NCBI GenBank assembly: GCA_022494885.1
Contig: JAGVSM010004959.1
Location: 24,540 to 88,539 of the forward strand
Reading direction: 5' to 3'
Source: Micrasema longulum
Taxonomy: Eukaryota; Arthropoda; Insecta; Trichoptera; Brachycentridae
DNA length: 64,000 nt
The position numbers and the translations under genes are program-made. The notes beneath the pieces are model-generated. The model was given only the letters and a program-made list of their open reading frames with translations, was not told the DNA's origin and made no database searches. Shown in pieces: positions 4,590 to 57,697 of this stretch. The stretch's first letter is position 1. Each line of letters begins with the position of its first letter.

Positions 4590-4672
4590 TCGTAAAGGGA
4601 ATCAAATAACCATCGACGTGCGTAAAAATATGCTACGCATTTGAGCGATCACAATTAACGATAATGAAAATT
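4590..4672 (+). repeat. Repeat H end fragment
   Basis: It resembles the left end of repeat H at 18172-18240 ('accatcgacgtgc', 'gagcgatcacaat'). It adjoins the Pal array on its right. Confidence 0.5.
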
Positions 4673-4674
4673 TA

Positions 4675-5397
4675 AATTTATTTCAACAGAGAGGGAAAAC
4701 ATTTTTGAGAAGGGAATATGGAAGTCTAGGCATTTACAGGGCTTATGACCTGTCATTGGCTGGTTTAAGTGGCCACTTTACACACTGTGAAACATTCACA
4801 TTCTGCCTATGTTCGAACATCCACATTTCCTCAACTCTTCCATCTGTTGAGTTTTGTGAAGTAATTGTTGTATTACTACCTGGTAAAAGAAGAAGTATAT
4901 AAATTGGAAAATTGTTTTCAGGCGTTGCCTAGTGTTGAAATAAATATAAATATTAATAACTCCCTAGAGAGGAAATCCAGTCAGTCTGCAAGCATTTGGA
5001 CATACTCAAACATTGTTGAATTACTACCCGGTAAAAGAAGGAGTATAAAAATTGGAAAATTGTTTCCAGGCGTTGCCTAGTAGGTGATTTGGTTCAGCCG
5101 GATGAATCTCACCCACGTGATAAAGGTTTCAGCTCTTTTACTTCACAAAAGTCAACAGATGGAAGAGTTGAGGAAATGTGGATGTTCAAACATGGGCAGA
5201 ATGGTGAATGTTACACAGTGTGTAAAGTGGCCACTTAAACCAGCCAATGACAGGTCATGAGCCCTGTAAATGCCTAGACTTCCATATTCCCTTCTCAAAA
5301 TTGTTTGCCTATCTGCTGAAATAAATTTAAATATGAATAACTCCCTAGGGAGGAAATCCAGCCAGTCTGCAAGCATTTGGACATACTCAAACATTGT
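4675..5397. repeat. Pal-A inverted and tandem array
   Basis: It starts in plus orientation (CAACAGAGAGGG, tctaggcatttacagggc, AAGTGGCCACTT). It flips near 4862 and runs in minus orientation through one complete unit, ending with the CTCCCTAGGGAG palindrome and 'ctcaaacattgtt'. The minus part holds two copies of the 'ggcgttgcctag' block, one truncated. No long frame is conserved between copies. Confidence 0.85.
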
Positions 5398-5915
5398 TAA
5401 ATAATGAACATGCTTAAGTTATCGCAGTCATAAGTCAACGCGTGTGTAATCTCTAAGTCAACGCTCGTGTCGGTTTGTTTTTTGTTTTCCTCGTAAATAA
5501 ATACAGTTCACTGGCAAAAAATCGGCGTTTACTATAAAAAAATAATACAATATATTGCATTTGCAAAATAGTAAGGAGTATCTAATACAAAAAAATAAAA
5601 ATTAAATTACAATTACGACTGCTTTTCTTGACATTTGGCTCGCCAACCGCCGGCTAAATGCAATGAATAGCGTGATAAATAATAAATAAATAAAAATAGC
5701 AGTTTTGGAATATTTTCTATATTTACACCGGTGAAATTCGAGTATGTGATTGCGCAGCAGGATTATACGTCGCAAAACGTAAATATTTTGATATTTAATA
5801 TTAAGTGTTCACGGATGTTGCATTGTGATCGCGAATACGATAAACAAGCTTGGTGAGTAATTGTTATCACGTCGCTTATTAGCACGTCGATAGTTATTTG
5901 TGATTGAGCTACTGC
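5398..5915 (+). mobile_element. Repeat H, copy 1 (MITE)
   Basis: About 520 bp shared with 18164-18680 and, in reverse, 48544-49126. The right end 'agcacgtcgatagttatttg' is the inverted match of the left end of copy 2. The left terminus is missing here. Confidence 0.8.
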
Positions 5916-8964: not shown

Positions 8965-9408
8965 AAGTCTAGGCATCTACAGGGCTTACGACCTGTCAAT
9001 GGTTGGTTTAAGTGGCCACTTTACACACTGTAACATTCACCATTCTGCCCATATTTAAACATCTATATTCCTTAAATTATTTCATATGTTGATGTTTGTG
9101 AAGTTAAAGAGCTAAAACCTTTATTTATGCGGGTGAGATTCATCTAATTTAATTATTTCACCTACATACTATACTAGGCAACGCCTGATAATGTATTTTT
9201 TTCAATTTCTATACTTCTTCATGGACCAGGGCTGGTATTCCGAACGCGTTTACAGAGCGCTATAATGCGTATTTAGTAAGTAAAAACGCGCTATACCGCG
9301 CTATAATTTCGTTTGGAATACCAGCCAAGGTGGATATTTATCAACAATATTTTGAGTTTGTCCAAATTTTTGTAGACAAGGACTGGATTCAACTCCCTGG
9401 GGAGCTCT
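8965..9408 (+). repeat. Pal-B copy, split by a tiny MITE
   Basis: Plus-oriented Pal-B from 'gtctaggcatctacaggg' through 'tactaggcaacgcctg' to 'aactccctggggagct'. It is interrupted at 9231-9328. The uninterrupted sequence of the same spot is seen in reverse at 22560-22580 and 35920-35935. Confidence 0.8.
9231..9328. mobile_element. 98-bp MITE with terminal inverted repeats
   Basis: It starts 'ggctggtattccgaacg' and ends with the inverted match 'cgtttggaataccagcc'. Repeated 'gcgctata' words fill the centre. It interrupts Pal-B between 'ggaccagg' and 'tggat', which are adjacent in other copies. Confidence 0.65.
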
Positions 9409-10600
9409 CAACACCTCAAACTCAACAGCAATTGGCAAAAGCATTTAATGTGTCGCAAGAAACAATCAGCAGACGTTTACGAGAAATGGGGAAGATCAGT
9501 AAACTCGGTAAACTCGGTAAATGGGTCCCGCACGATTTGAATGAACGGCAAATGGAAAATCGCAAAGTCACTGGTGAGATGCTTCTTCAACGCCACGAAA
9601 GAAAATCATTTCCATACCGAATTGTGACGGTGGACGAAAAATGGGTTCATTTTGAAAACCCGGGGCGGAGAAAATCGTGGATGTCACCTGGCGAAGCCGG
9701 TCCTTCAACACCAAGGCCAAATCGCTTCGGCAAGAAGGCCATGCTTTGTCTGGTGGGACTAGAGCGGTACAGCGGATATTATCCATGGTTTTATCCCACC
9801 GAGTTCCTCGAGGGTATGCTCGGTTACAGCAGTATGAAGACCAGAAGGAATGTGTATTTAACTACGCACTCCTTTCGATTGTTGCGCGCTATTATTGACA
9901 ACCCTGAAATTATGCGGAGCATTGGCTTTTATGTTCCGAATAATTACCTTAGACAGCGTCAGCATAGACTCTTTCACATTCCAATATACAGGATCAACCT
10001 GCCTGTTGGAAGGGCTATCTCTATGTTGAACAATATTACTATGAACATTGACATTTTTCACGTCTCTGAGGGAGTTTTTCGTTACGAGATTCTCTTATTT
10101 TTTTAACATATTATTCTCTGGATATTATGTATACTTATGTGTCATTTTTATACATACATAATTTTACCTTATTACTTTAACTGTTTCTGCATGTATGAAT
10201 TAAGATATTCCATTTTGTAATGTACATATATATGAATAAAATTGAAATTGAAAAAAATGTATATTATGAACACTCGAAACCCGGCGAAACCGTCAATGCA
10301 CAACGCTATCGACAACAATTGATTTATTTAAATCACGCATTGATCGAAAGACGAACGGAACGTGCCAGAGAACATGACAGAGCGATTTGTTACACGACAA
10401 TGCGCCAACTCACACAGCAAACCTAGCGAAAAACACCTTGAAATCGCTTGGATGGGACCAAAAGGTGCACTTAGAACAGTTTTTTATCCCGTTTTCAAAT
10501 ATGCATTCGGAATTTTTCCACACACAGAATTTCGTCAAAGCCATGGACGATACTCCCGATTTAATTTACTTCAAACAGTAGTTTAATAAAATTAGTGATG
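9409..10600 (+). pseudogene. Mariner transposase pseudogene in two pieces
   Basis: The first piece (9409-9765) shows the helix-turn-helix part ('VSQETISRRLREMGKI'), the 'WVPHDLNERQ' motif and 'VTVDEKWVHFENP' with the first catalytic Asp. The second piece (10256-10600) resumes with 'SKPGETVNAQRYRQQL' and 'LLHDNAPTHTA' with the second Asp. A LINE fragment separates them. The N-terminal third is missing, the usual third-Asp 'SPDLAPSDYHLF' block is not found, and frameshifts break the rest. It cannot encode an active enzyme. Confidence 0.85.
9766..10255 (+). mobile_element. LINE 3' fragment inserted in the mariner
   Basis: It reads 'IGFYVPNNYLRQRQHRLFH' and continues to a stop at 10106, followed by a short 3' region ending in 'aaaattgaaattgaaaaaaa'. 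By chance the LINE frame is open with the mariner frame upstream, giving a 258-codon chimeric frame that starts inside Pal-B. This is not evidence of a fusion gene. Confidence 0.75.
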
Positions 10601-17766: not shown

Positions 17767-18054
17767 TTCAACTCCGGCCACCCTATATATACACATATCT
17801 TTTGAACCTATGGAAATTTCTGTCCCTCTTAAAATCACCAATATGTTTATGTACATAGATCAAGTTTTCATAAATATGTTGATTTCTTTAAACTTATCTC
17901 TAAGTCATGTTTGTTATGTCTCGTCTGGAAGGTGTCGTCATCACGTGCTTTTCCAGGGCCGCGATTACAAACGCTATCTACATCGGTACAAATCGAAATT
18001 ATATAAAAAACAATATTTACGTAATGTGTATATTTGTATAAAACCTGTGATTGG
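17767..18054. other. Unassigned
   Basis: An open frame covers 17756-18088 but starts in mariner sequence and ends in Pal, so it has no support as a gene. At 17955 'cagggccgcgattacaa' resembles the terminal repeat of the element at 19844-20984. Confidence 0.35.
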
Positions 18055-18163
18055 ACAAGTTCAACATCTGTTGACTTTCGTTAAGTAAAAGAGCTGAAAC
18101 CTTTATCATGTGGGTGAGATTCACCCGGCAGAGCATTTTAATTTTTTATACTTCTTATACCAG
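18055..18163 (+). repeat. Pal-A fragment
   Basis: Plus-oriented 'catctgttgacttt', 'agagctgaaacctttatcat' and 'tttttatacttctta'. It abuts repeat H. Confidence 0.75.
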
Positions 18164-18680
18164 TAGCTCAATCACAAATAACTATCGACGTGCTGAAAAA
18201 CATACTAAGCATTTTAGCGATCACAATGAACAATAATGAACGTGCTTAAGTTATCGAAGTCATAAGTCAACGCGGGTGTAATCTCTAAGTCAACGCTCGT
18301 GTCAGTTTGTTTTTTGTTTTCCTCGTAAATAAATACAGTTTACTGGCGAAAAATCGGCGTTTACTATAAAAAATTGAACAATATATTGCACTTGCTAAAT
18401 AGTAAGGAGTATCTAATACAAAAAAGTGAAAATTAAATCACAATTACTATGGCGACTGTTTTTCTTAACATTTGGCTCGCCAACCGCCGGCTAAATGCAA
18501 TAAATAGCGTGATAAATAAAAAAATAAATAAAAATAGCAGTTTTGGAATATTTTCTATATTTACACTGGTGAAAATCAAATATGTGATTGCGCAGCAGGA
18601 TTATGTCGCGAAACGTAAATATTAGGTGTTCACGTTTAATATTAGGTGTTCACGGATGTTCCATTGTGATTGCGAATACA
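18164..18680 (+). mobile_element. Repeat H, copy 2
   Basis: It has a complete left end, 'tagctcaatcacaaataact', inverted with the right end of copy 1, and is truncated at the right. Body words such as 'ttggctcgccaaccgccggc' are shared by all three copies. Confidence 0.8.
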
Positions 18681-19635: not shown

Positions 19636-19736
19636 CAACAGAGTATGAATAAAAAAATATATATTATTTTTGTAAAATGAATAATCCGGAAGGGTAAATA
19701 ATTAAATTCTAAAATATTTAATTAAAAAAAAAAAAC

Positions 19737-19835
19737 AGCCAATGACAGGTCATAAGCCCTGTAAACGCCTAGACTTTCATATTCCCTTCTCAAAAATGTT
19801 TTCCCTCTCTGTTGCAACAAATTTAAAGAGTTCAG
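19737..19835 (-). repeat. Pal-A fragment
   Basis: Reverse Pal core 'agccaatgacaggtcataag' to 'ctctctgttgcaacaaattt'. Confidence 0.8.
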
Positions 19836-19889
19836 GGCTCCGATTACAATGGAAAGTTTACATTTATCTTCAACTAAATGTAATTGAAT

Positions 19890-20712
19890 ATTTGTATATA
19901 ACCATTTACCGACTTTTCTATGTCTACCGGTTTCGAGACGTACCCGTCTCTTCATCAGGACATCAATTAAACCAACATGCAAACTAACTTTAATAAAAAT
20001 ACAGGAGTTAAAATCTTACATCGTCATCGTCGTTCCCTTTCCGCACCTAATGGTGCATAGGGCACTGCATTGGTATACCAATCGCAGCGTATCTTGATCA
20101 TTTCTGTTTCATAAAGGTAAGGTGATCAGTATTACGCTTCAGATCCCAGTCGAGGGACTATGAAATATTCTAGTGTAAAGACACCCTTTTAAATAATATT
20201 CCATGTCAACCATGTCGGGAATCGAACCCGAGACCTCTTGCATGGTAGGCAAACGCGCTGACCATTACACCACGAGGCCGACAATCAATCAAAAAAACTT
20301 ACATACTAATAACAAAGGGTTAAAAGTAAATAATATGGAAATATTTCACATTAGGAATTTAAAAAATAATTAAACAACCTTTCAATATAGTCGTTTATAC
20401 GATGCTCCATTGTAATGGTCACCTTATTAAACCTATAAAGCTTACCCCCTCCCTCCATCCCCTCTACTTTTTTCATTTATATCTCAAACAACAGAATATT
20501 TTCATAATTTAATCGGTGCATGTTTGTCCTAATCGGTACATGTGCTTTTTGAAATGCATGTCGTGTTGGTTTTATATTTTTGTGCAACAACTATGGTGAA
20601 GGTATATAGTGGGTTTTGCATGTTGGTTTAGTTGGTGTCCTGACGAAGAGACAGGTACATCTCGAAACCGGTAGACACAGAAAAGTCGGTAAGTGGTTAT
20701 ATACAAATATTT
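19890..20712. repeat. Repeat J, copy 2 (foldback), carrying SINE1
   Basis: Both ends are present as inverted arms of about 95 bp: left 'tctaccggtttcgagacgta' and right 'ctcgaaaccggtagacac'. SINE1 occupies 20025-20290. The J sequence resumes after it with 'cttacat' repeated on both sides, which would be a target duplication. Confidence 0.75.
20025..20290 (-). mobile_element. SINE1 (tRNA-derived), nested in J
   Basis: The reverse strand carries a tRNA-like head ('ggcctcgtggtgtaatggtc', B-box 'ggttcgattcc'), a body, and the 3' block with 'gtgcggaaagggaa' leading to an (ACG/ATG)-type tail. It is flanked by 'cttacat' on both sides. Confidence 0.85.
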
Positions 20713-21190: not shown

Positions 21191-21480
21191 TTAAGCATGT
21201 TCATTATTGTTCATTGTGATCGCTGAAATGCTTAGCATGTTTTTAAGCACGTCGATAGTTATTTGTGATTGAGCTACAGGGGATACGATATATTCTAGTG
21301 TGAAAACACCCTCTTCAATAAATATTTCTCATCAACCATGTCGGGAATTAAACCCGAGATATTTTGAATGGCAGGCAAATGCGCTGACCATTACACCACG
21401 AGGTCGACATACCGTTGATTATAGTGAAGTCAAAGAGCTGAAACCTTTATTGCTGTGAAGAAATTTATCTGATGGTTTAA
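21191..21480 (-). mobile_element. Composite unit: H end + SINE1 + Pal
   Basis: It contains an H terminus (21191-21279), a SINE1 piece (21284-21415) and a Pal piece (21418-21475). The same three parts with identical junctions recur at 49020-49330. The SINE1 part lacks its 3' end. Confidence 0.75.
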
Positions 21481-29900: not shown

Positions 29901-32900
29901 AACTATAATAAATAATAAAAATAATGTGACCTCACTGGGGTTTCCCGTGTCGAGGACACTTAACAATATACTTTTAAAAAATTACATTTGAGAATAAACA
30001 AAGAAGACTAACTTAAAAAAACGAAGATAATTAACAAATATTCAGACAGTTTTAAAAACAAGGTATTTATATAACACACAATGAAAATAACAAAAACCTA
30101 ACATAAGCTATACACTTGTAAAGCAGTTGATTCAATATTGGTATTGGCAAATGAGACAATCCATTTTACTTTTACCTAGCTCCACTATCCATTTTTTTAT
30201 AGCCTTTTTAAACATTTTCTCGTTACTAATTTTAATAGATTAATAGATTTTAATAGATTTTAATAGATAGTGGAAGTAGGTTATAGATTTTAATTGAATA
30301 ATACTCAAAATCCCTTTGTTCAAAAGCGGTGTTAGTTTGTATTTGTTTAAGTTGTCTATGTGTTGAGGATCTAGTGATTATATTATTTGTATGTGATGTA
30401 TTGTGGGGTTATGTCTTTCATTTGAGTAAGAGTAGTTTTTGAATCTATAAGTGAGTATTGTTTTAGCGTATAATTGTTTTGGTGTCATAAGTTGTGATTT
30501 ATGGAATATTTCTTCAGTAGATATCTGTATCGGGACTCTGAGTATTATTTTAAGTATGGATTTTTGTGCAACAAATACACTATTTAAAACTGTGTCACTC
30601 GCACCACCCCAACCGATTATACCGTACTCCAAAATTGATCGGCGCAATGCGAAATAAATCTTTAAAAGTTCATGTACATTAATTATATTTCGAATTAACT
30701 ATGTTCAATAACTAATTTAAGGCATGTTTCACTTAATGTTAAATGTTTCCCTCGGCACGGGACACCCCAGTGTATTCTGTTTAAAAAAAATAATACAAAC
30801 ATAGTAAAAGTATAAATAAATGAAAAAAATGTATAAAAATTTGTAATCGGGGCCCTGGTGCCTCAAAAGTAGATTAGTAAAATCAACATTATACAAAGTG
30901 TTTTTATATACAAACCATTTTTAATTTTTTGTTCGACAGATAAAGCAAACATTGATTCTGAGGAAGAAAATGACAACACAACCCCATTTGTTGATGACAT
31001 CTCAAACAAAATTGATAATTTTAAACCCCCAGAAATTACATCCCTTCCTTATACGCTCGACAGGTCAAATTTCACGTGCGCAAAATGCAACGTCCAGTTC
31101 ACATCTTACAAAGAACTGGCTTCTCACATGCCCGAACACCGTCCCAACCGCATTTGCGAAGTTTGCGGAAAAATATGCGTGTCCGTCAAAAGTTTATTTT
31201 TTCATCTCAAAACGCACTCCGAGCAGAGATACAAATGTACCCAATGCCACAAAGAGTTCAAGACTAAACGCTATTTACTGACGCACGAAAGAGTGACGCA
31301 CCAGGGAAGTCGCTTGAAATTTAAATGCAAAAGTTGCGAGGAAGTTTTTCTGACGTATAACGCACGAGTGAAACACATGGTCGAGAAGCACCAAATGGAG
31401 GACAAAATGTACAAATGTAACCAATGCACATGTCGATACAGGTGACATTTATTTATTGAAATTCTTAAGTCGCACACCTGCGGTAGTTGCTGATAGGACA
31501 CGTGCTGTTAGTAGCTAACATTAACGTGCATGTCGGTTTTGTGCAACTACTATGGTGGAGGTGTATAGCTAGTATAGATTTCCTAAGAATGAATTATTTT
31601 TCACATTGCGAAAATAATTCAGTTGTATCCTCAACTCTTAAAAGACTGTGGTAAATAATCCCTTTGCGAGCAGTGATGTAACATTGTGTTACAACTAGTA
31701 AGAGACGGAATATTCTAAAGTTCAGACGTTTGAGAGAAAAAAACATGGAGACATACTGTTTAATAATTATTTTTCCATAATTTATGCAAATGAACGTATA
31801 ATTTAGCCTTGTTATAGCAAAATAAATTAAAAATCATAAATACTCCGCTCATACTACGCGCGTGCGTCCCCCATCACTGTCATCAACCGACTGAAGACTG
31901 AATTTGTTTTATTTATTTATTTATTTATTAACGGACATTGTCCATGTATACAATTTATAAGGTTTAAATATTACAATAAAAGAGTAGTTTAAAACATTTA
32001 AAGAAAAAAGAAAGAAGCATTGACAAACATAGGGACATCGAGACAAGATCTGAACTATTTATTTAGTGCTCGTTTAAATCGTTGTAAACCTAAACCAAAA
32101 AAGTCCAGATCCTGTCTTGAGTTAACAATACGACAAAGGCGGGTCATTGGAGAATTTAGGCCATAGTTTGTTCTATGCTGATCGATGAACAGTACTTCAT
32201 TGTTTCTCAATCTACGAGTCGGAATATTGAATTTTACTTGTCCCAGTAATGATGGAACATCGATTATACCATTTAGTATGCCGAACATATATATGGAGTC
32301 AATATTAGTTCTACGTTTTTGTAAACTAGAAATATTTAACATTGACTCTATTTCAGCATAAGAATAATTATCTCTCTCTAGTCCAAGCATCCACGCTATT
32401 TACACATCACCCGCTATAGAACAGCGTATCTGTCTTCTTTGCTATGAGTTCTATCCTTGTGCTCTCTCTTATACAGATGTATTGCTGAATTAGCGGACAT
32501 TCATTCCTTTATTTTTTGTATTAACATCCAGCTTATTAACAAATTTTACTTTCCAAATCTGGTGTGAAAATGCCCATTTGAAGATTGGAAAAAATACGAG
32601 AGATATGTCAAGTCTTGTGTCCTATGTCAACTAGTGTGCCATCACAGCCACACAAGAGTTAATATAGCTACCTACTGAAACAAGATTTTCAGCTTCTGTT
32701 CGTTTTTCAGCCGAAACGGAAACTAATTTAAACAAGTTAAAAATCTTTAAATTTATTTCAACAGAGAGGGAAAAAGTTTTCGAGAAGGGAATATGGAAGT
32801 CTAGGCATTTACAGGGCTTATGACCTGTCATTGGCTGGTTTAAGTGGCCACTTTACACACTGTGTAACATTCACCATTCTGCCCATGTTTGAACATCCAC

Positions 32901-33876
32901 ATTTCCTCAACTCTTCCATCTGTCCAGCCAATGACAGGTCATAAGCCCTGTAAATGCCTAGACTTCCATATTCCCTTCTCAAAATATTTTTTTCCCTCTG
33001 TTGAAATAAATTTAAATATGAACAACTCCCTAGGGAGGAAATCCAGCCAGTCTGCAAGCATTTGGACATAATCAAACATTGTTGAATTACTACCTGGTAA
33101 AGGAAGAAGTATAAAAATTGGAAATTGTTTCCAGGCGTTGCCTAGTAGGTGATTTGGTTCAGCCGGATGAATCTCACCCACGTGATAAAGGTTTCAGCTC
33201 TTTCACTTCACAAAAAGTCAACAGATGGAAGAGTTGAGGAAATGTGGATGTTCAAACATGGGCAGAATGGTGAATGTTACACAGTGTGTAAAGTGGCCAC
33301 TTAAACCAGCCACTGACAGGTCATAAGCCCTGCAAATGCCTAGACTTCCATATTCCCTTCTCGAAAACTTTTTCCCTCTCTGTTGAAATAAATTTAAATA
33401 TGAACAACTCCCTAGGGAGGAAATCCAGCCAGTCTGCAAGCATTTGGACATAATCAAACATTGTTGAAGTTAAAAATCAGTTAAAAATGCTTAAAATTAG
33501 GCTAATTACGCATAATACAGCGCTACCTGGCGGGTATTTTACCAACGAAAATTATATACAAGATAAAGGTTACAGGCCCCGTGAATTCCTAGACTTCCAT
33601 ATTAATAAAGAATCTCTTTTCAGGCTCGGCAGCCATTTGCGCGCACACGTCAGGAGCGTGCACTCGCACGAGAAGCAGCACACGTGCCAGGAGTGCGGGC
33701 GATCGTTCTTCTCGCGCAGATCGCTGACGGAGCACCTCGTCCGCCACACGGGAGACAGAAAGTTTTCCTGCGAGACGTGCCACAAGGCGTTCGGCAGGAA
33801 GCGGTCGCTCAAGCTGCATTTGGCGACTCATCTACGCACGCGGGACATGTCTTCGCACAAGCGAGATCGCTTATAG
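26787..33876 (+). CDS. ZAD-C2H2 zinc-finger protein, four exons
   Basis: A probable DNA-binding transcription regulator of the arthropod ZAD class. Exons are 26787-26957, 28790-28937, 30940-31441 and 33624-33876 (171, 148, 502 and 253 nt, together 358 codons with the stop). The N-terminal ZAD uses C21 and C24 from exon 1 and C69 and C72 from exon 2; this domain binds one zinc and usually dimerises. A short acidic linker follows (about 108-150). Then come seven C2H2 fingers at about 151-173, 177-199, 204-227, 234-257, 264-287, 293-315 and 321-343, with a TGDRKF linker between the last two. Finger 5 is split by intron 3. All junctions have GT and AG and matching phase (0, 1, 2). DNA target and biological role cannot be read from the sequence. 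ZAD families are large in insects, so orthology is open. Confidence 0.93.
27015..27545 (-). mobile_element. LINE fragment in ZAD intron 1
   Basis: Minus frame 27534-27238 with 'KFDYCELPDLINIDVPTRRT', then 'RIHRLGNECTSHMDIF', the conserved C-terminal order of the Jockey/CR1-like LINEs here, followed by an AT-rich 3' region. Confidence 0.65.
27727..27915 (+). mobile_element. SINE2 copy 3, in ZAD intron 1
   Basis: 'ggtggtcctgtggccagtat', 'agtgagttatttacaactct' and 'caaaattaaaatattgg' match SINE2. The B-box is damaged by a local duplication ('tctgaggtttgaggttt'). Confidence 0.8.
27945..28190 (-). mobile_element. Repeat G, copy 2, in ZAD intron 1
   Basis: A (TTTA)n start (a minus-strand tail) and then the block shared with 1993-2155. 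It reads as a LINE 3' end with no coding left. Confidence 0.6.
28191..28310 (-). repeat. Pal-B fragment with an enlarged hairpin
   Basis: The Pal-B words 'ttgttcttcatctctgtt' and 'ttgaatccattccttgtc' flank a perfect 14-bp stem (28251-28264 with 28270-28283) with loop 'ctaca'. In other copies this spot is the short palindrome around 'ctccctggggag'. Confidence 0.7.
28330..28620 (-). pseudogene. Mariner C-terminal fragment in ZAD intron 1
   Basis: Minus strand 'AFQDHVLEIPPPRFERFE' then 'CMQSCMKLKGEYF', matching the transposase C-terminus of mariner elements (arginine-rich helix, then a C..C.....GxYF end). No catalytic part. Confidence 0.5.
28790..28937 (+). CDS. ZAD gene exon 2
   Basis: Acceptor 'tttgtttcag' and perfect donor 'gtaagt'. 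It encodes 'NPFICDGCIQKLISALYFQR', the second zinc pair and the terminal helix of the ZAD. It ends one base into a codon. Confidence 0.93.
28938..29884. other. ZAD intron 2, first part
   Basis: No recognised element. There is a short (ATT)n run at 29636-29652 and AT-rich sequence throughout. Confidence 0.5.
29885..30660 (-). mobile_element. LINE-X with RT C-terminus, in ZAD intron 2
   Basis: The minus frame 30647-30378 reads 'YGIIGWGGASDTVL', then 'KSILKIILRVP', then 'MTPKQLYAKTIL'. More decayed coding follows to about 30170 ('KMFKKAIKKWIVELGKSK') and then the LINE-X 3' block (29885-30060). A 5'-truncated dead copy. Confidence 0.75.
30661..30935 (-). other. ZAD intron 2, LINE-X-like remnant
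   Basis: 'ccctcggcacgggacacccc' around 30752 weakly resembles the LINE-X 3' block. At 30845 'tgtaatcggggccctg' resembles a terminal end of the element at 19844-20984. Confidence 0.35.
30940..31441 (+). CDS. ZAD gene exon 3
   Basis: It starts after 'gttcgacag' and completes the split codon as CAT. It encodes the acidic linker, fingers 1-4 and the first half of finger 5. The donor is 'tacag|gtgaca'; reading past it meets a stop after one codon, which supports splicing here. Confidence 0.93.
31625..31845. repeat. Repeat R, copy 1, in ZAD intron 3
   Basis: It matches 61750-61970 ('tgtggtaaataatccctttg', 'atgtaacattgtgttac', 'ttccataatttatgcaaat'). Non-coding, class unknown. Confidence 0.7.
31850..32680 (-). 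repeat. Repeat I, copy 2, split by LINE-B
   Basis: Reverse matches to 5945-6240 occur at 31850-31912 and 32396-32660, with a LINE-B fragment between. The uninterrupted copy 1 shows the pre-insertion order. Confidence 0.65.
31912..32395 (-). mobile_element. LINE-B 3' end in ZAD intron 3
   Basis: Minus frame 32390-32055 (111 codons, intact): 'LQKRRTNIDSIYMFGILNG', then 'TRLCRIVNSRQDLDFFGLGL'. The 3' region ends at a (TAAA)n tail near 31915. It is closely related to 56736-57190. Confidence 0.8.
32740..33480. repeat. Pal-A tandem and inverted array in ZAD intron 3
   Basis: A plus segment (32755-32923) meets a minus array. In the minus array 'ccagccaatgacaggtcat' at 32933 and 'ccagccactgacaggtcat' at 33307 mark one complete unit of 374 bp. 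A second partial unit runs to 33470. The conserved palindromes AAGTGGCCACTT and CTCCCTAGGGAG occur in each unit. Confidence 0.88.
33560..33606 (-). repeat. Pal remnant next to the exon 4 acceptor
   Basis: 'aggttacaggccccgtgaat' and 'cctagacttccatatta' are a diverged Pal core. It ends about 18 bp before the splice acceptor at 33622-33623. Confidence 0.6.
33624..33876 (+). CDS. ZAD gene exon 4 and stop
   Basis: Acceptor 'aatctcttttcag'. It completes finger 5 and encodes fingers 6 and 7, then a basic tail ending 'HKRDRL'. It is much more GC-rich than the flanks. A Pal remnant ends about 18 bp before the acceptor. No AATAAA lies close behind the stop, so the 3' UTR end is unknown. Confidence 0.93.
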
Positions 33877-35065: not shown

Positions 35066-35069
35066 AGTT

Positions 35070-35415
35070 AATTTTTACCGTGTCGCAGTCGGCAATAGGC
35101 CCATTTCTATTAGTTTTTGTAGTATGTAGTGCTGGGAACCATGTTGAGTTTGATTTAAGCCCGTCGTCTTTGTTTATGTTATTTGGGTGTCTGTGTATTT
35201 CAATTGCCTCTTTTATTATTCGTGCACTGTAATTACTGGATTTTTATAAAATTTTCAGTTCGAAGGCGAAAAAATGTCCGGTGTCTATAAAGTGTTCCGC
35301 TATTGCAGATTTTTCAGGGTGCCCAAGTTTACACGCTCTTTTGTGTTTGTCATTCCTTTTCTTCGCTGTGCGCCCTGTTTGCCGACTGCGACACGGTACA
35401 AATTACTAGTACTTA
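35070..35415 (-). pseudogene. Penelope-like GIY-YIG endonuclease fragment
   Basis: The minus strand reads 'RQTGRTAKKRNDKHKRACKL', then 'EKSAIAEHFIDTGH', then 'SARIIKEAIEIHRHPNN'. These are the central and C-terminal motifs of the GIY-YIG nuclease domain of Penelope-like retroelements. One stop and a missing GIY/YIG start make it dead. A 19-bp inverted repeat (35076-35094 and 35380-35398) bounds the fragment. Confidence 0.75.
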
Positions 35416-35439
35416 AACACATTTTTTTTTATACAAAAC

Positions 35440-35650
35440 ACTTTCTCTGAAGTTTTCTATACAGACAGTTTCCCTGAACATGGCTCCTCAATGGTAGCCG
35501 AAACGTCGGAACAAATCCAACACACAAGGTATCACCCAAAAAAGAAACATATTAATTTAACAGCATTTGTAAATATTTTTAATAAAAAAATTGTAATTAG
35601 GTATTTTTATGGATGTAGTCTCTCCAGTGGTCCAAAGTCACATTCTAGAG
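35440..35650. other. Unassigned, with a Penelope-style hinge motif
   Basis: 'ctgaacatggctcctcaatg' then 'gtagccgaaacgtcgga' at 35474-35510 has the form of the hinge seen near Penelope-like elements. No coding region. Confidence 0.4.
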
Positions 35651-49126: not shown

Positions 49127-49330
49127 GGGCTATGATATATTCTAGTGTGAAAACACCCTCTTGAATAAATATTTCTCATCAACCATGTCGGGAATCGAAC
49201 CCGAGATCTTTTGAATGTCGGGCAAATGCGCTGGCCACTACACCACGAGGTCGACAAACCGTTGATTACAGTGAAGTCAAAGAGCTGAAACCTTTATTGC
49301 TGTGAAGAGATCCATCTGATGGTTTAATGG
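49127..49330 (-). mobile_element. SINE1 + Pal, second copy of the composite unit
   Basis: SINE1 (49130-49262) and Pal (49263-49328) follow the H end exactly as at 21284-21480. Confidence 0.78.
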
Positions 49331-54400: not shown

Positions 54401-57298
54401 TATTTGAATACATCGGACTGTGTCCAAAAATCCCCCCACTTTGCCTCACTTTAACCGTGCGCATGCGTGAAGTCGCCGCGTCATGTTGCCAGATCGCGAA
54501 AATTATAATCATAAAACAAATGTAAAGCAATTTGTTAATTTCTCTAAAATTTTATTTTACACGCGGAAACATTGATTAACACAACCGAATAAATAAGTAA
54601 AGGGTCATTTAATAAGAGTAATTTTATTAATGAACGTTGAACTTAAAAAAAAAAAAAATTACATAAATCGGATATTTTTAAGTCATGTTAACCTTTCCCT
54701 CACTAAGCATTCAAAAATTACACATGATCCGAACGGGGGGACTAAGCGACCCCAGCGCCTACTTGTATATGGCATCAGAAGAATAAAACGTTGGAAGTGT
54801 TTATGACCGTGGAATAATTTATTCATGTTTTCGCGTACACATATTTTCATTCGTAAATTATATACATTTTTGCTAGTTTGCCGAATGCTTGTATACATAA
54901 AGTGAAATTGAACATATTGATATATGGGGGATTCGAAACCCCACCTTGTCCGGCTAGGTTAAATAATATTTGATGTTTTAAAGATAATGTCAGTCAAATA
55001 TCCACCACGGCGTTGTTTAATTCGAGGTCCAACATTCCAGTTTAATGAATTATTTATCTGTGAGTCCCCAATGTACCCAAGTTTGTTTTAAATTTCAAGA
55101 GGCGCAATCTGCCGGTCGAAAGGGGGGGCAATTATAAACGCTTTCTTCATCGATACATATCGAGACAGTATAAAGTAAAATCGATATTTATTTTTGAAAA
55201 TGTGTATATTCGCATGAAAATTAAAAGTATCTTTGTCCTTTTCTATTTTTCACACAAAAAACTCAATTTTACTGCGGACGATATTAACTTTCCATAGAAT
55301 ATAATGGTATTTAATTGTTTTGTGGTTGGCACCTTTTTTATTAAAAGCCTATTTAAAATATAAGAAAGAAATAAGTAAACTTCGAAGTCGAATTGAATTC
55401 CGACATAACTGTCAGTTTCTGAAACGAGTGGCTAGATGCAATAAATGATGTCGCTAGATTCTGCCATATTAACATATAAGTATCTGGTAGCCACTATAAA
55501 AAAAATTAGTTTTTTTATTTTTTGCTTCGGTTTTACTTTCTTTCTGAGTGTACGTATCAAGATGTCAAAGGAGCCGGCTTTGTAGTCGATCGGTAGATAC
55601 ATACAGACGATCATTAAACGTGCCGTCTTAGTAATTTTCAAAAGTCATATAATAATCGTATACGAGGGGGAAATTTTGGCTTCAATTGGGATTTATTGGA
55701 GTTTATAATCGCTTTGAAGTGGGCACTTTTTATCACAGAAGCCTATAAAATATAAATGAGAACTATTTTAAATTTTAATGAAGTAAGGAACGCGGACTAA
55801 TTTTTGCTGTCATTCCATTGGCTTGTTTCGATCACATGTCGATATGACAGTAGGTAGAACATACCGATGTAAGATACAGATAGTACATAAGTTAAGTATA
55901 CCGTCTCAATATGTACAGATGAAGAAAGCGTGCATAATCGAGGCCTAGATACTTTCTCCTGTATCGAGTTTATAATACAACCCAATCAGGATAATGTTTG
56001 TACCGTGCTGATCGTGTTTTAGAAAAAGAAATAATTATTATTGTCAGTACAATCAAAACTCTTTATTGCTGAACTGTTCGCCCTCTTCTAGAATATGTCT
56101 CCTAGAATAGTGGTCTGGTCTCCATTCTATGTCAATCGCATAAATCACATTAAATCAGTCCAACATCGCTCGCTTCGAAAAGTAGCGTGGATGCTCAGAC
56201 TAGAGAGGTAATTATTATTATTTTTATTTATATCCCTACAGAGATGGGGTAGATTTTTTTCAAATTCAGGATTATGGATATTCGAGCGTTTACAGGGCTT
56301 ATGACCTGTCATTGGCTGGGTTAAGTGGCCACTTTAAGTTAAATTTAACTCGGAAGAGTCTTAACTACATGAAATAAAGTAATCTGCTAATTAAAATACT
56401 TAACTTCAATATCAATACATAGATGGCGCTCCAACTCGCTTGTGAATGGTTTCTCATTTAATAACATATATACAAAAATCAAAAATGTTACCTGTGTGGA
56501 TATTCGCTAATAAGCGAAATGGGGAATGTTGTAGTACCTACTTAAAGTGGCCACTTAACCCAGCCAATGACAGGTCATAAGCCCTGTAAACGCTCGAATA
56601 TCCATAATCCTGAATTTGAAAAAAAAAAAAAATCTACCTCATCTCTGTAGGGATATAAAATAAAAATATATACCTACTCCCCCTTGGGAGAAATCCAGAT
56701 TTGTGTATGTACAAAATACACGTACCAAAATAATGAATTATTATTATGCTGATATAGAGTCAATGTTCGATATTCCTAATTTACAAAAACGCAGAACTAA
56801 TATTGATTCCATATATATGTTCGGCATACTAAATGGTATAATCGATGTTCCATCATTACTGGGACAAGTAAAATTCAATATTCCGACTTGTAGGTTTAAA
56901 AACAATGAAGTAGTGTTCATCGATCAGCATAGAACAAACTAAGGCCTTAATTCTCCGATGACCCGTCTTTGTCGTATAGTTAACTCGAGACAACATCTGG
57001 ACTTTTTTGGTTTGAGTTTACAGCGATTTAATCGAGCACTAAATATATAGTCCAGATCTTGTCTCGATGTCCCTTATGTTTGTCAATGCTTCTTTTCTTT
57101 TTTTTATTTGTTTTAAACGATTCTTTAATTGTAATATAAAAACCCTATAAATTGTATACATGGACAATGTCCGTTAATAAATAAATAATTGTAAAATAAT
57201 ATATTACCCTTTGAGAAGTACGCTGGTGCTGCTGGGACGCGGGAGTTTGTCATTAAAAATATCGTAAAAGTTATAAACCAATCCATTGTCCTTTAACG
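51351..57298 (-). CDS. Unidentified gene, 3' part
   Basis: I do not recognise this protein. Minus-strand exons 52904-52785 and 51469-51351 join in phase 1 with consensus GT/AG sites and end at TAG. They encode 'LCSLKTEQGELAARASVSRH' and a charged helical C-terminus ('VREQLRQVQYVLLREMRSLR') ending 'VVFKYI'. A 42-nt exon at 54286-54245 fits upstream in phase 1. A further exon at 57298-57208 ends in phase 2, so it needs the alternative acceptor at 54281 or an unseen exon. The 5' end and start codon are outside or unrecognised. The two terminal exons are more GC-rich than their surroundings. A coiled coil is likely for the last exon (heptad-like spacing), no more. Confidence 0.6.
51480..52084. 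other. Unassigned
   Basis: A 118-codon plus-strand frame (51770-52126) has no recognisable domain and runs into the tandem repeat that follows. No supported gene. Confidence 0.4.
52085..52445 (+). repeat. Tandem repeat with 'atgcgctctgtagctgcaag' units
   Basis: Units start near 52102, 52200, 52333 and 52434, each with 'tgcgct' and most with 'gtagctgca'. Spacing is about 98-133 bp. Two more units are at 47610-47720. Confidence 0.7.
52446..52700 (-). pseudogene. LINE RT palm fragment
   Basis: Minus strand 'FDTVDHDLLIKKAV', then 'CFHTFSGVPQGSHLGPLLFS', then 'IFINNIKND', with one stop. Jockey/CR1-like reverse transcriptase. It lies next to the penultimate exon of the unidentified gene. Confidence 0.75.
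52785..52904 (-). CDS. Unidentified gene, penultimate exon
   Basis: Acceptor 'tatttttgtccag', donor 'gtgagt'. 120 nt, phase 1 on both sides, high GC. It contains 'SRHIIGACQA' just before the donor. Confidence 0.7.
52942..53425 (+). repeat. Pal-A copy, diverged
   Basis: Plus-oriented with many substitutions: 'cttatgacctgtcattggcc', 'ttactaggcaacgcctgaaa', 'gtttgcagacaggccggatt'. The end block is duplicated in tandem at 53260-53300 and 53360-53410. Confidence 0.75.
53572..54190 (+). mobile_element. RTE-1 pseudogene copy
   Basis: It reads 'IDKIKKGAPRWFGYVERMDG', then 'RGRSRKTWLDQIQ', then out of frame 'YLSYPYGETA'-like coding to 54187. Deletions at 53730 and several frameshifts. The simple tail is replaced by 'taatttattt'. 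Confidence 0.8.
54191..54687. other. Intron and unassigned sequence
   Basis: Apart from the small exon at 54245-54286, no feature seen. The last 40 bases belong to repeat O. Confidence 0.4.
54245..54286 (-). CDS. Unidentified gene, small exon
   Basis: Acceptor 'acttttcag', donor 'aaag|gtacag'. It encodes 'GSNVFEPIPYDNK'. A second AG six bases inside ('ggcag') would give a 36-nt exon in phase 2. Confidence 0.5.
54688..54962. mobile_element. TTAA-flanked insertion in repeat O
   Basis: TTAA on both sides (54688-54691, 54959-54962). The left start 'cctttccctcact' resembles the end of element N, while the right end ('ccttgtccggctagg') does not. The empty site is at 22986-22994. Confidence 0.65.
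54963..55139. other. Repeat O right part and unassigned sequence
   Basis: The first 75 bases match 22994-23065. Nothing else recognised. Confidence 0.4.
55140..55965 (-). mobile_element. LINE-M, second copy (3' region)
   Basis: It matches 14440-15175 over most of its length ('ggagccggctttgtagtcga', 'ccattggcttgtttcgatca', 'taagttaagtataccgtctc'). It stops just before the zinc-knuckle coding part. Confidence 0.68.
56040..57190 (+). mobile_element. LINE-B copy, split by a Pal palindrome
   Basis: The first part reads 'YVNRINHIK'-type sequence to 'MLRLERx' with frameshifts. After the Pal insertion it resumes with 'IPNLQKRRTNIDSIYMFGI' and, past a stop at 56941, 'TRLCRIVNSRQ'. The 3' end and (TAAA)n tail are at 57150-57187. 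Confidence 0.75.
56217..56702. repeat. Self-contained Pal palindrome
   Basis: Arms 56225-56336 and 56545-56665 are near-perfect inverted repeats (each with 'tacagggcttatgacctgtc' or its complement). The loop of about 210 bp is not Pal core. It is inserted in LINE-B. Confidence 0.85.
57208..57298 (-). CDS. Candidate upstream exon of the unidentified gene
   Basis: A strong pyrimidine tract and acceptor 'ttttttttacag'; donor 'aaagg|gtaata'. One frame is open: 'LKDNGLVYNFYDIFNDKLPR'. The phase conflicts with the main model of the next exon. Confidence 0.45.
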
Positions 57299-57425: not shown

Positions 57426-57443
57426 TGTGGTCAAATTATTTTT

Positions 57444-57697
57444 ATTTTCTATTATTTTATTTTATTTTATTTTATTTTATTTTATTTTATTTTATTTTAT
57501 TTTATTTTATTTTATTTTATTTTATTTTATTTTTTTATTTTATTTTATTTTATTTTTTATTTTATTTCAGTTTATTTTATTTTATTTTATTTTATTTTAT
57601 TTTATTTTATTTTATTTTATTTTATTTTATTTTATTTTATTTTATTTTATTTTATTTTATTTTATTTTATTTTATTTTATTTTATTTTATTTTATTT
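57444..57697 (+). repeat. (TTTTA)n microsatellite, about 250 bp
   Basis: Nearly pure ATTTT repeats, with a few interruptions around 57531-57570. Open frames across it are artefacts of the repeat. Confidence 0.95.

Follow-up and report, generated by a model that had tools for sequence, protein, structure and literature searches.

Pal, a dispersed 382-bp repeat of Micrasema longulum with a twister-like motif and a probable Penelope-type mode of insertion

Results

The focal insertion and the Pal unit

The window, a stretch of 64,000 nucleotides (64 kb) from the genome of Micrasema longulum, carries at 32746-33466 an insertion of a repeat referred to here as Pal. The insertion is bordered on both sides by the 12-bp sequence AAGTTAAAAATC (32734-32745 and 33467-33478), from which its borders were set by hand and which we regard as a target-site duplication, in line with the statistics of 39 insertions given below. 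The left arm (32746-32923) is inverted and lies on the minus strand. It comprises u298-u382 followed by u1-u93, numbered after the 382-bp reference unit U (u1-u382, window 32924-33305), and its outer end, at u93, is of the type denoted A. The right arm (32924-33466, plus strand) is 1.42 units long, with one full unit (32924-33305) followed by u1-u161, and its outer end, at u161, is of type B. BLAST alone places the two edges at 32743 (u96) and 33468 (u163), respectively.

The tandem and self-complementary arrangement noticed in a previous sequence-only reading is real. At the focal site the direct repeats (32924-33086 and 33306-33468) are 95% identical and the inverted arms (32743-32923 and 33221-33401) 98% identical, and the 12-bp palindrome CTCCCTAGGGAG occurs at 12 sites in the window at no more than one mismatch, six of them exact, where 0.01 would be expected. 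Copies can indeed be read as circular permutations of one unit, but the period, given in that reading as 374-375 bp, had to be corrected to 382 bp. BLAST of the unit gives 34 non-overlapping pieces (5,943 bp of the 64 kb) at about 20 places in the window, including two pieces of a sister family, Pal2, and two short pieces adjoining tRNA-like SINEs.

The palindrome CTCCCTAGGGAG lies within a 68-nt stretch, the "tail", that separates end positions A and B, and is found as a hairpin at 33026-33037 with a second copy at 33408-33419. A TATA-like box, TATAAAAATT (33110-33119, plus strand), may represent a promoter. A frame of about 46 codons from an ATG at u8-10, seen by eye, was judged to be due to chance, since the same letters form the ribozyme motif described below. 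A second Pal insertion in the window (4670-5402, plus strand) has an A-type inverted arm and a B-type right end, with a flank match of 8 bp only.

Across the 584-Mb genome (5,184 contigs) there are 7,985 exact CTCCCTAGGGAG sites, whereas the reversed control word occurs 4 times, and a search with the whole unit gave at least 133 matches with 40 of 3,581 first-look candidates scored. The tandem unit of 382 bp and its high copy number agree with the 150-450 bp and high copy number of animal retrozyme units. Pal is dispersed as insertions, and its longest unbroken arm among the loci fetched from the genome spans about 3.6 units, unlike the long head-to-tail arrays of a satellite. A 27-base word from the Pal core had no exact copy in viral or prokaryote collections, in which near relatives of the source genome may be absent.

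Several other sequences in the window touch on Pal. A different element at 18040-18200 (minus strand) shares u236-304 and a TATA-like stretch, and BLAST of the unit showed no ribozyme match there. Two tRNA-like SINE heads (21333-21450 and 49180-49297, minus strand) are each immediately preceded by a short piece related to u262-299. Long open frames that cross the Pal tail in antisense and continue into other sequence are present at 9192-10106 and in two fetched loci, L075 and L078. The window also holds a TTTTA pentanucleotide array of about 52 copies (57440-57697). A zinc-finger frame gave no homologue at E 1e-10; its sequence and those of the LINEs give an impression of insect origin.

A type-P5 twister motif in Pal

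A permissive Rfam scan of 32600-33600 gave the type-P5 twister (RF02684) as its best match, on both Pal copies. Copy 1 (32812-32876, minus strand) scored 22.9 bits (E 0.028), with a predicted cut, placed by hand, between 32842 and 32841. Copy 2 (33260-33341 including P5, plus strand) scored 21.4 bits (E 0.067), and its predicted cut, with coordinates likewise assigned by hand, is U33302|A33303. The helices of copy 2 would be P5 (33260-33264/33337-33341), P2 (33268-33271/33305-33308), T1 (33274-33276/33322-33324), P4 (33316-33320/33329-33333, with an A.C as the outermost pair in this copy) and a P1 formed by the palindrome AAGTGGCCACTT (33291-33302). All four hairpins described in the sequence-only reading are present, ACAGG-n8-CCTGT corresponding to twister P4 and AAGTGGCCACTT to P1, while CTCCCTAGGGAG belongs to the tail. 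No hammerhead was among the five Rfam matches in 32600-33600, in which the twister is listed twice.

The gathering score of RF02684 (37.6) was not reached, either at the focal site (22.9 bits) or by the best match scored in the genome (32.5 bits). With 80 of 35,165 candidates scored, the genome held at least 22 matches at E up to 10, none of them above the cutoff, and all 20 loci fetched from the 22 best matches overlap Pal copies. The score alone proves little, since weak matches to RF02684 also occur in 13 of 14 control genomes. Written out by hand, the elements are P2 UGGU/ACCA, P4 ACAGG/CCUGU enclosing a UnnnAAGC loop, the open stem P5 UGGGCA/UGCCUA, the pseudoknots T1 AUG/CAU and T2 GC/GC, whose positions in Pal we take to be those of known twisters, and the cut motif U|AA. 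P2, P4 and the conserved core (GA, UAA, GC, AAGC) appear as a motif in type-P5 order. A strict motif requiring P2, T1 and P4 together was found at five sites in the window, all within Pal or Pal2, whereas dinucleotide shuffles of the window, 25.6 Mb in all and scanned on one strand each, contained none; this contrast is strong, albeit not blind, the motif having been composed after viewing the Rfam alignment and with the pseudoknot positions of known twisters.

Conservation was followed in 119 distinct copies, drawn from 145 of 202 matches after those missing most of the ribozyme region had been left out. UUAAA at the cut was kept in 93 of these copies, AAGCCC in 90 and UGGU/ACCA in 87. T1 reads AUG/CAU in 80 of the 119 and AUG/CAC in 14, which leaves one T1 pair as a broken A.C. 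This CAC for CAT in the P4 loop, seen in L057, L060, L062-L064, L067-L070 and others, is nearer to the Rfam consensus.

A second set of 106 distinct copies, of which 71 were selected, supplied an alignment of 30 of those 71. In these 30 copies standard pairs fill 92.0% of the predicted pair cells, compared with 24-41% in slid controls and 90.6% in shuffles. Double changes affect 12 cells, where shuffles give 4.6 and two slid versions give 11. They affect 5 pairs, where shuffles give 3.6 (113 of 500 as high) and two slid versions show 7, and further types of pair are not in excess of the controls either. The covariation of the stems is thus modest, supportive but not decisive. For the pseudoknots the same copies give possible pairing only, in 90.0% (T1) and 93.3% (T2) of cells. 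When the ribozyme stretch is folded with a program that cannot form pseudoknots, the nested structure of best energy contains P5 and P4 but pairs UGGU of P2 with the P1 palindrome instead of ACCA; within this limit, the modelled absence of P2 counts against that helix. Folding the unit as a circle was considered as further support and discarded, because the result is not clearly stabler than that of shuffled sequence (z -1.1; at least as low in 11 of 100 shuffles). As judged from sequence, the Pal hairpins fit a type-P5 twister self-cleaving ribozyme, and self-cleavage is predicted.

The sister family Pal2

Pal2 is present in the window at 56222-56735 (plus strand) and in the fetched loci L051 and L059. 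The window copy has an A-type inverted left arm and a B-type right end, with BLAST ends at v33 and v106, and a 12-bp duplication, AATTATTATTAT, read by hand at 56210-56221 and 56736-56747. The copy in L059 also has A and B ends and a 12-bp duplication read by hand (ATATATCATTCG), and its BLAST match extends to v127 on the B side. The unit is about 461 bp long, as measured in one locus. RF02684 is again the best Rfam match (56520-56586, plus strand, 19.5 bits), and the window copy has CTCCCCCTTGGGAG where Pal has its tail hairpin CTCCCTAGGGAG.

In a global alignment Pal and Pal2 are identical at 56 of 65 positions of the twister, 46 of 67 of the tail and 111 of 165 of the body, and local alignment of the body scores up to 37, with 29 as the maximum of 200 shuffles. 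These values indicate a distant relationship over the whole length of the two units, with the ribozyme as the most similar part. The P1 palindrome AAGUGGCCACUU, a perfect 12 nt, is the same in both. Two-sided changes between them replace one A-U and one G-C pair of P5 by G-C and A-U, respectively, and one U-A pair of P2 by G-C, and Pal2 has lost one further P5 pair.

Outer ends, target-site duplication and central joins

Both outer ends could be assigned in 42 of 121 elements from the window and the fetched loci, a set from which chains were left out if they were shorter than 120 bp or lay no more than 30 bp from the edge of a locus. Duplicate loci (L005, L018, L023) were omitted from the arm mapping, and L002 in addition from the end histogram and from the 106-copy and 121-element sets. 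In 39 of the 42 elements one end is of type A and the other of type B; three have ends of the same type, although L102, counted among these, is probably an A+B copy next to an older piece. A ends fall at u84-101, mostly u93-95, and B ends at u155-169, mostly u159-164, the two classes having been defined after the histogram was seen. The A and B positions are 68 nt apart, one on each side of the insertion, and both ends face outwards as expected of RNA 3' ends. The same 39 of 42 elements show the arrangement of Penelope-like elements (PLEs), in which one of the two outward ends carries the tail and the other lacks it. The ends are fixed, but A and B differ in sequence, and identical terminal inverted repeats of the MITE/TIR kind were not found.

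Among the 39 A+B insertions a duplication of at least 8 bp was present in 30 (2.2 expected by mixing flanks) and one of at least 10 bp in 26 (0.23 expected). The length has its mode at 12 bp, with 14 insertions at 12 and 6 at 13. Elements with a single assigned end are probably truncated copies, since only 2 of 30 had a duplication of at least 8 bp (0.5 expected); when hidden short left arms were looked for, L054 appeared to have one and L010 perhaps another.

The central joins differ in position between copies. Across the 39 A+B insertions 20 joins have an overlap of 0-3 bp and 19 a filler of 1-15 bp. Microhomology is not in excess, since 16 of the 39 joins overlap by 1-3 bp and 16.7 would do so by chance, as in plain end joining. 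One insertion of 2.85 kb, in L107, consists of two arms, roughly 3.6 and 3.0 units long, on either side of 311 bp of GC-rich foreign filler (1869-2179), for which no Rfam match up to E 1 was obtained. The plus-strand length, summed over pieces, exceeds one unit in 8 of 42 elements of the pattern-chosen loci. In that pattern-chosen set arm ends at the predicted cut site number 3 of 42 versus 1.2 expected. A crowding of arm starts at u374-381 was considered as a cleavage footprint and rejected, since it appeared in loci chosen for a full 1-382 match and this choice favours arms slightly longer than one unit.

Of 141 cases of a rare variant (frequency below 15%) in one arm, 29 recur in the other arm of the insertion, where 5.4 would be expected; for the next tandem unit the figure is 25 of 201 (8.3 expected). 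The rate between different elements is 3.5%. Overall divergence is similar between arms (5.8%), tandem units (4.9%) and different elements (5.7%). Taken together, these figures suggest a trace of a common source RNA inside insertions, and not close identity.

Search for a helper

No reverse transcriptase (RT) or endonuclease tied to Pal was found in the fetched DNA, which yielded one degraded PLE-like fragment only. The unit itself, at 382 bp, is too short for the ORF of RT and GIY-YIG endonuclease that PLEs possess. The fetched DNA contains 14 frames of at least 170 aa, of which at least those of L075 and L078 cross the Pal tail antisense, and none of the 14 resembled RT plus endonuclease by eye. 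The fragment, in L074 and L109, is a frame found with a script whose motifs suggest a PLE-like endonuclease; hammerhead-like motifs lie close by. Database searches did not confirm it (one spurious weak match in Pfam; none in NCBIfam or PDB), and a protein search gave two relatives, 40-42% identical. No twister was recognised in the fragment. Remnants presumed from the same motifs to be PLE-like lie at 35069-35557 of the window, where there are relatives of the fragment, and at 7548-8107 of L109. They comprise the endonuclease-like frame (L109) and hammerhead-like blocks, CCTGAAGATGGCT..AGCCGAAACGTC, with an AC-rich stretch after them. Elsewhere in the window, a tRNA-headed SINE (19700-20300, minus strand) carries a hammerhead-like core (CCTGATGA..CGAAAC) at about 19958 that has no Rfam hammerhead match.

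Discussion

We consider it probable, at roughly two chances in three, that Pal is a non-coding, non-autonomous, retrozyme-like retroelement in which a twister takes the place of the hammerhead and which is inserted by PLE-type machinery from circular or multimeric RNA. The type-P5 twister would cut the transcript once per 382-nt unit, between U379 and A380, and the cut RNA would probably be ligated into a 382-nt circle (or multimer) that serves as template. PLE machinery would then cut the target DNA with a 12-nt stagger, and each exposed 3' end would prime reverse transcription internally, at A (u93) for one strand and at B (u161) for the other. Both cDNAs would extend inwards over variable lengths, at times for more than one turn of the unit, and finally be joined in the middle of the insertion by end joining. 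We infer insertion of the PLE type because end positions A and B, which are separated by 68 nt and occupy opposite sides of the insertion, fit the behaviour of the PLE tail. A circle would be the simplest source of arms that exceed one unit and start at a fixed internal point, and by analogy with hammerhead retrozymes it could follow from twister cleavage and ligation.

The alternative that survives best retains this scheme but does without the circle, the template always being a linear multimeric transcript of tandem genomic copies and the ribozyme merely trimming ends. Such tandem copies occur in the genome, and hammerhead cleavage is dispensable for insertion in vitro according to the available part of PMC11167929. 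By argument, varying arm ends should shorten the arrays, yet arms of about 3.6 units occur, and we hold this alternative to be rather unlikely.

It appears improbable that Pal is a ribozyme-bearing SINE mobilised by an ordinary LINE such as RTE, with inverted arms made by twin priming. LINE duplications usually vary in length whereas that of Pal peaks at 12 bp, and twin priming does not in itself explain a second outer end that is fixed and different. In favour of this reading, ORFs that look like those of RTE-like LINE fragments seem common in the window, and truncated twisters are mentioned at the 5' end of RTE as work in preparation (PMC7761336, available part). No Rfam match to a SINE head (tRNA, 7SL or 5S, with a Pol III promoter) was obtained in the focal insertion, and the four tRNA matches of the window all lie outside it. 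That Pal is a satellite or foldback DNA element, its arms and tandems produced by recombination, replication slippage or a DNA transposase and its twister likeness due to chance, could draw on the inverted arms and tandem units typical of foldback elements, on a sharp peak of duplication length that is also usual for transposases, and on the Rfam score under the cutoff, but is very improbable given ends that are not inverted copies of one another and differ by the 68-nt tail, the A+B combination in 39 of 42 elements, the variable central joins, the absence of the strict twister motif from 25.6 Mb of shuffled sequence and the retention of the same core in Pal2.

Returning to the twister-bearing retroelement that we favour, a more far-reaching version of it can be put forward tentatively. 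Dimeric working has been proposed for PLE hammerheads. Twister-made 382-nt circles might be satellites of PLEs in which the P1 palindrome AAGUGGCCACUU gives rise to a dimeric ribozyme and an enzyme dimer loads the two start sites. One start site would then serve each target strand, and the A+B ends with their 12-bp duplication would be fossils of this mechanism across the genome.

If Pal is what we suggest, the retrozyme life style would not be tied to the hammerhead, another fast self-cleaving ribozyme could be used, and ribozyme classes would be interchangeable parts. The A+B rule and the 12-bp duplication, seen over dozens of insertions, would then constitute genomic evidence on the Penelope-type mode of insertion. 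The combination of a twister and Penelope-type insertion in one element was not found in the open-access literature searched, where the one related statement, in the available part of PMC7761336, announces work, still in preparation in 2020, on RTE elements with truncated twisters.

The sequence-only reading had held that Pal fits no ordinary MITE, SINE or satellite. This stands, but the structure is not without known counterparts, namely PLEs and animal retrozymes, since its ends are fixed (A and B), its duplication peaks at 12 bp and its hairpins fit a ribozyme. As far as the available parts of PMC11167929 and PMC3846280 go, PLEs and Pal have in common a partial tandem with an inverted copy, an optional tail on one inverted end, a short target duplication and a ribozyme close to the starts of reverse transcription. 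A purified PLE protein cleaves both strands of the DNA and extends them, and reverse transcription begins at two neighbouring sites inside the RNA; what lies between these sites is the optional genomic tail, which is termed unique to PLEs (PMC11167929). Two internal starts in Pal, one per strand, would match this in vitro behaviour. Inverted pLTRs with a 31-bp tail on one of them were described together with duplications of 8, 9 and 10 bp and one case of none (PMC3846280). The tail of Pal, at 68 nt, compares with 30-40 in PLEs, and its duplication, with a peak at 12 bp, with the 8, 9 and 10 bp of rotifers. PLEs encode RT and a GIY-YIG endonuclease and carry hammerheads (PMC11167929, PMC3846280, available parts), whereas Pal is without either.

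According to the available part of PMC7229834, animal (non-LTR) retrozymes resemble Pal in being non-coding and present in many copies, with tandem units of 150-450 bp that each hold one self-cleaving ribozyme, and a PLE is the suspected helper in both cases. The ribozymes of animal retrozymes are type I hammerheads, and circular RNA has been demonstrated for hammerhead retrozymes, whereas the twister-like motif of Pal is known from DNA sequence. The twisters of RTE elements share with Pal a place of this ribozyme class inside a eukaryotic retroelement; they are truncated and located at the 5' end (PMC7761336, available part), whereas the motif of Pal comprises all type-P5 parts within a tandem, non-autonomous unit.
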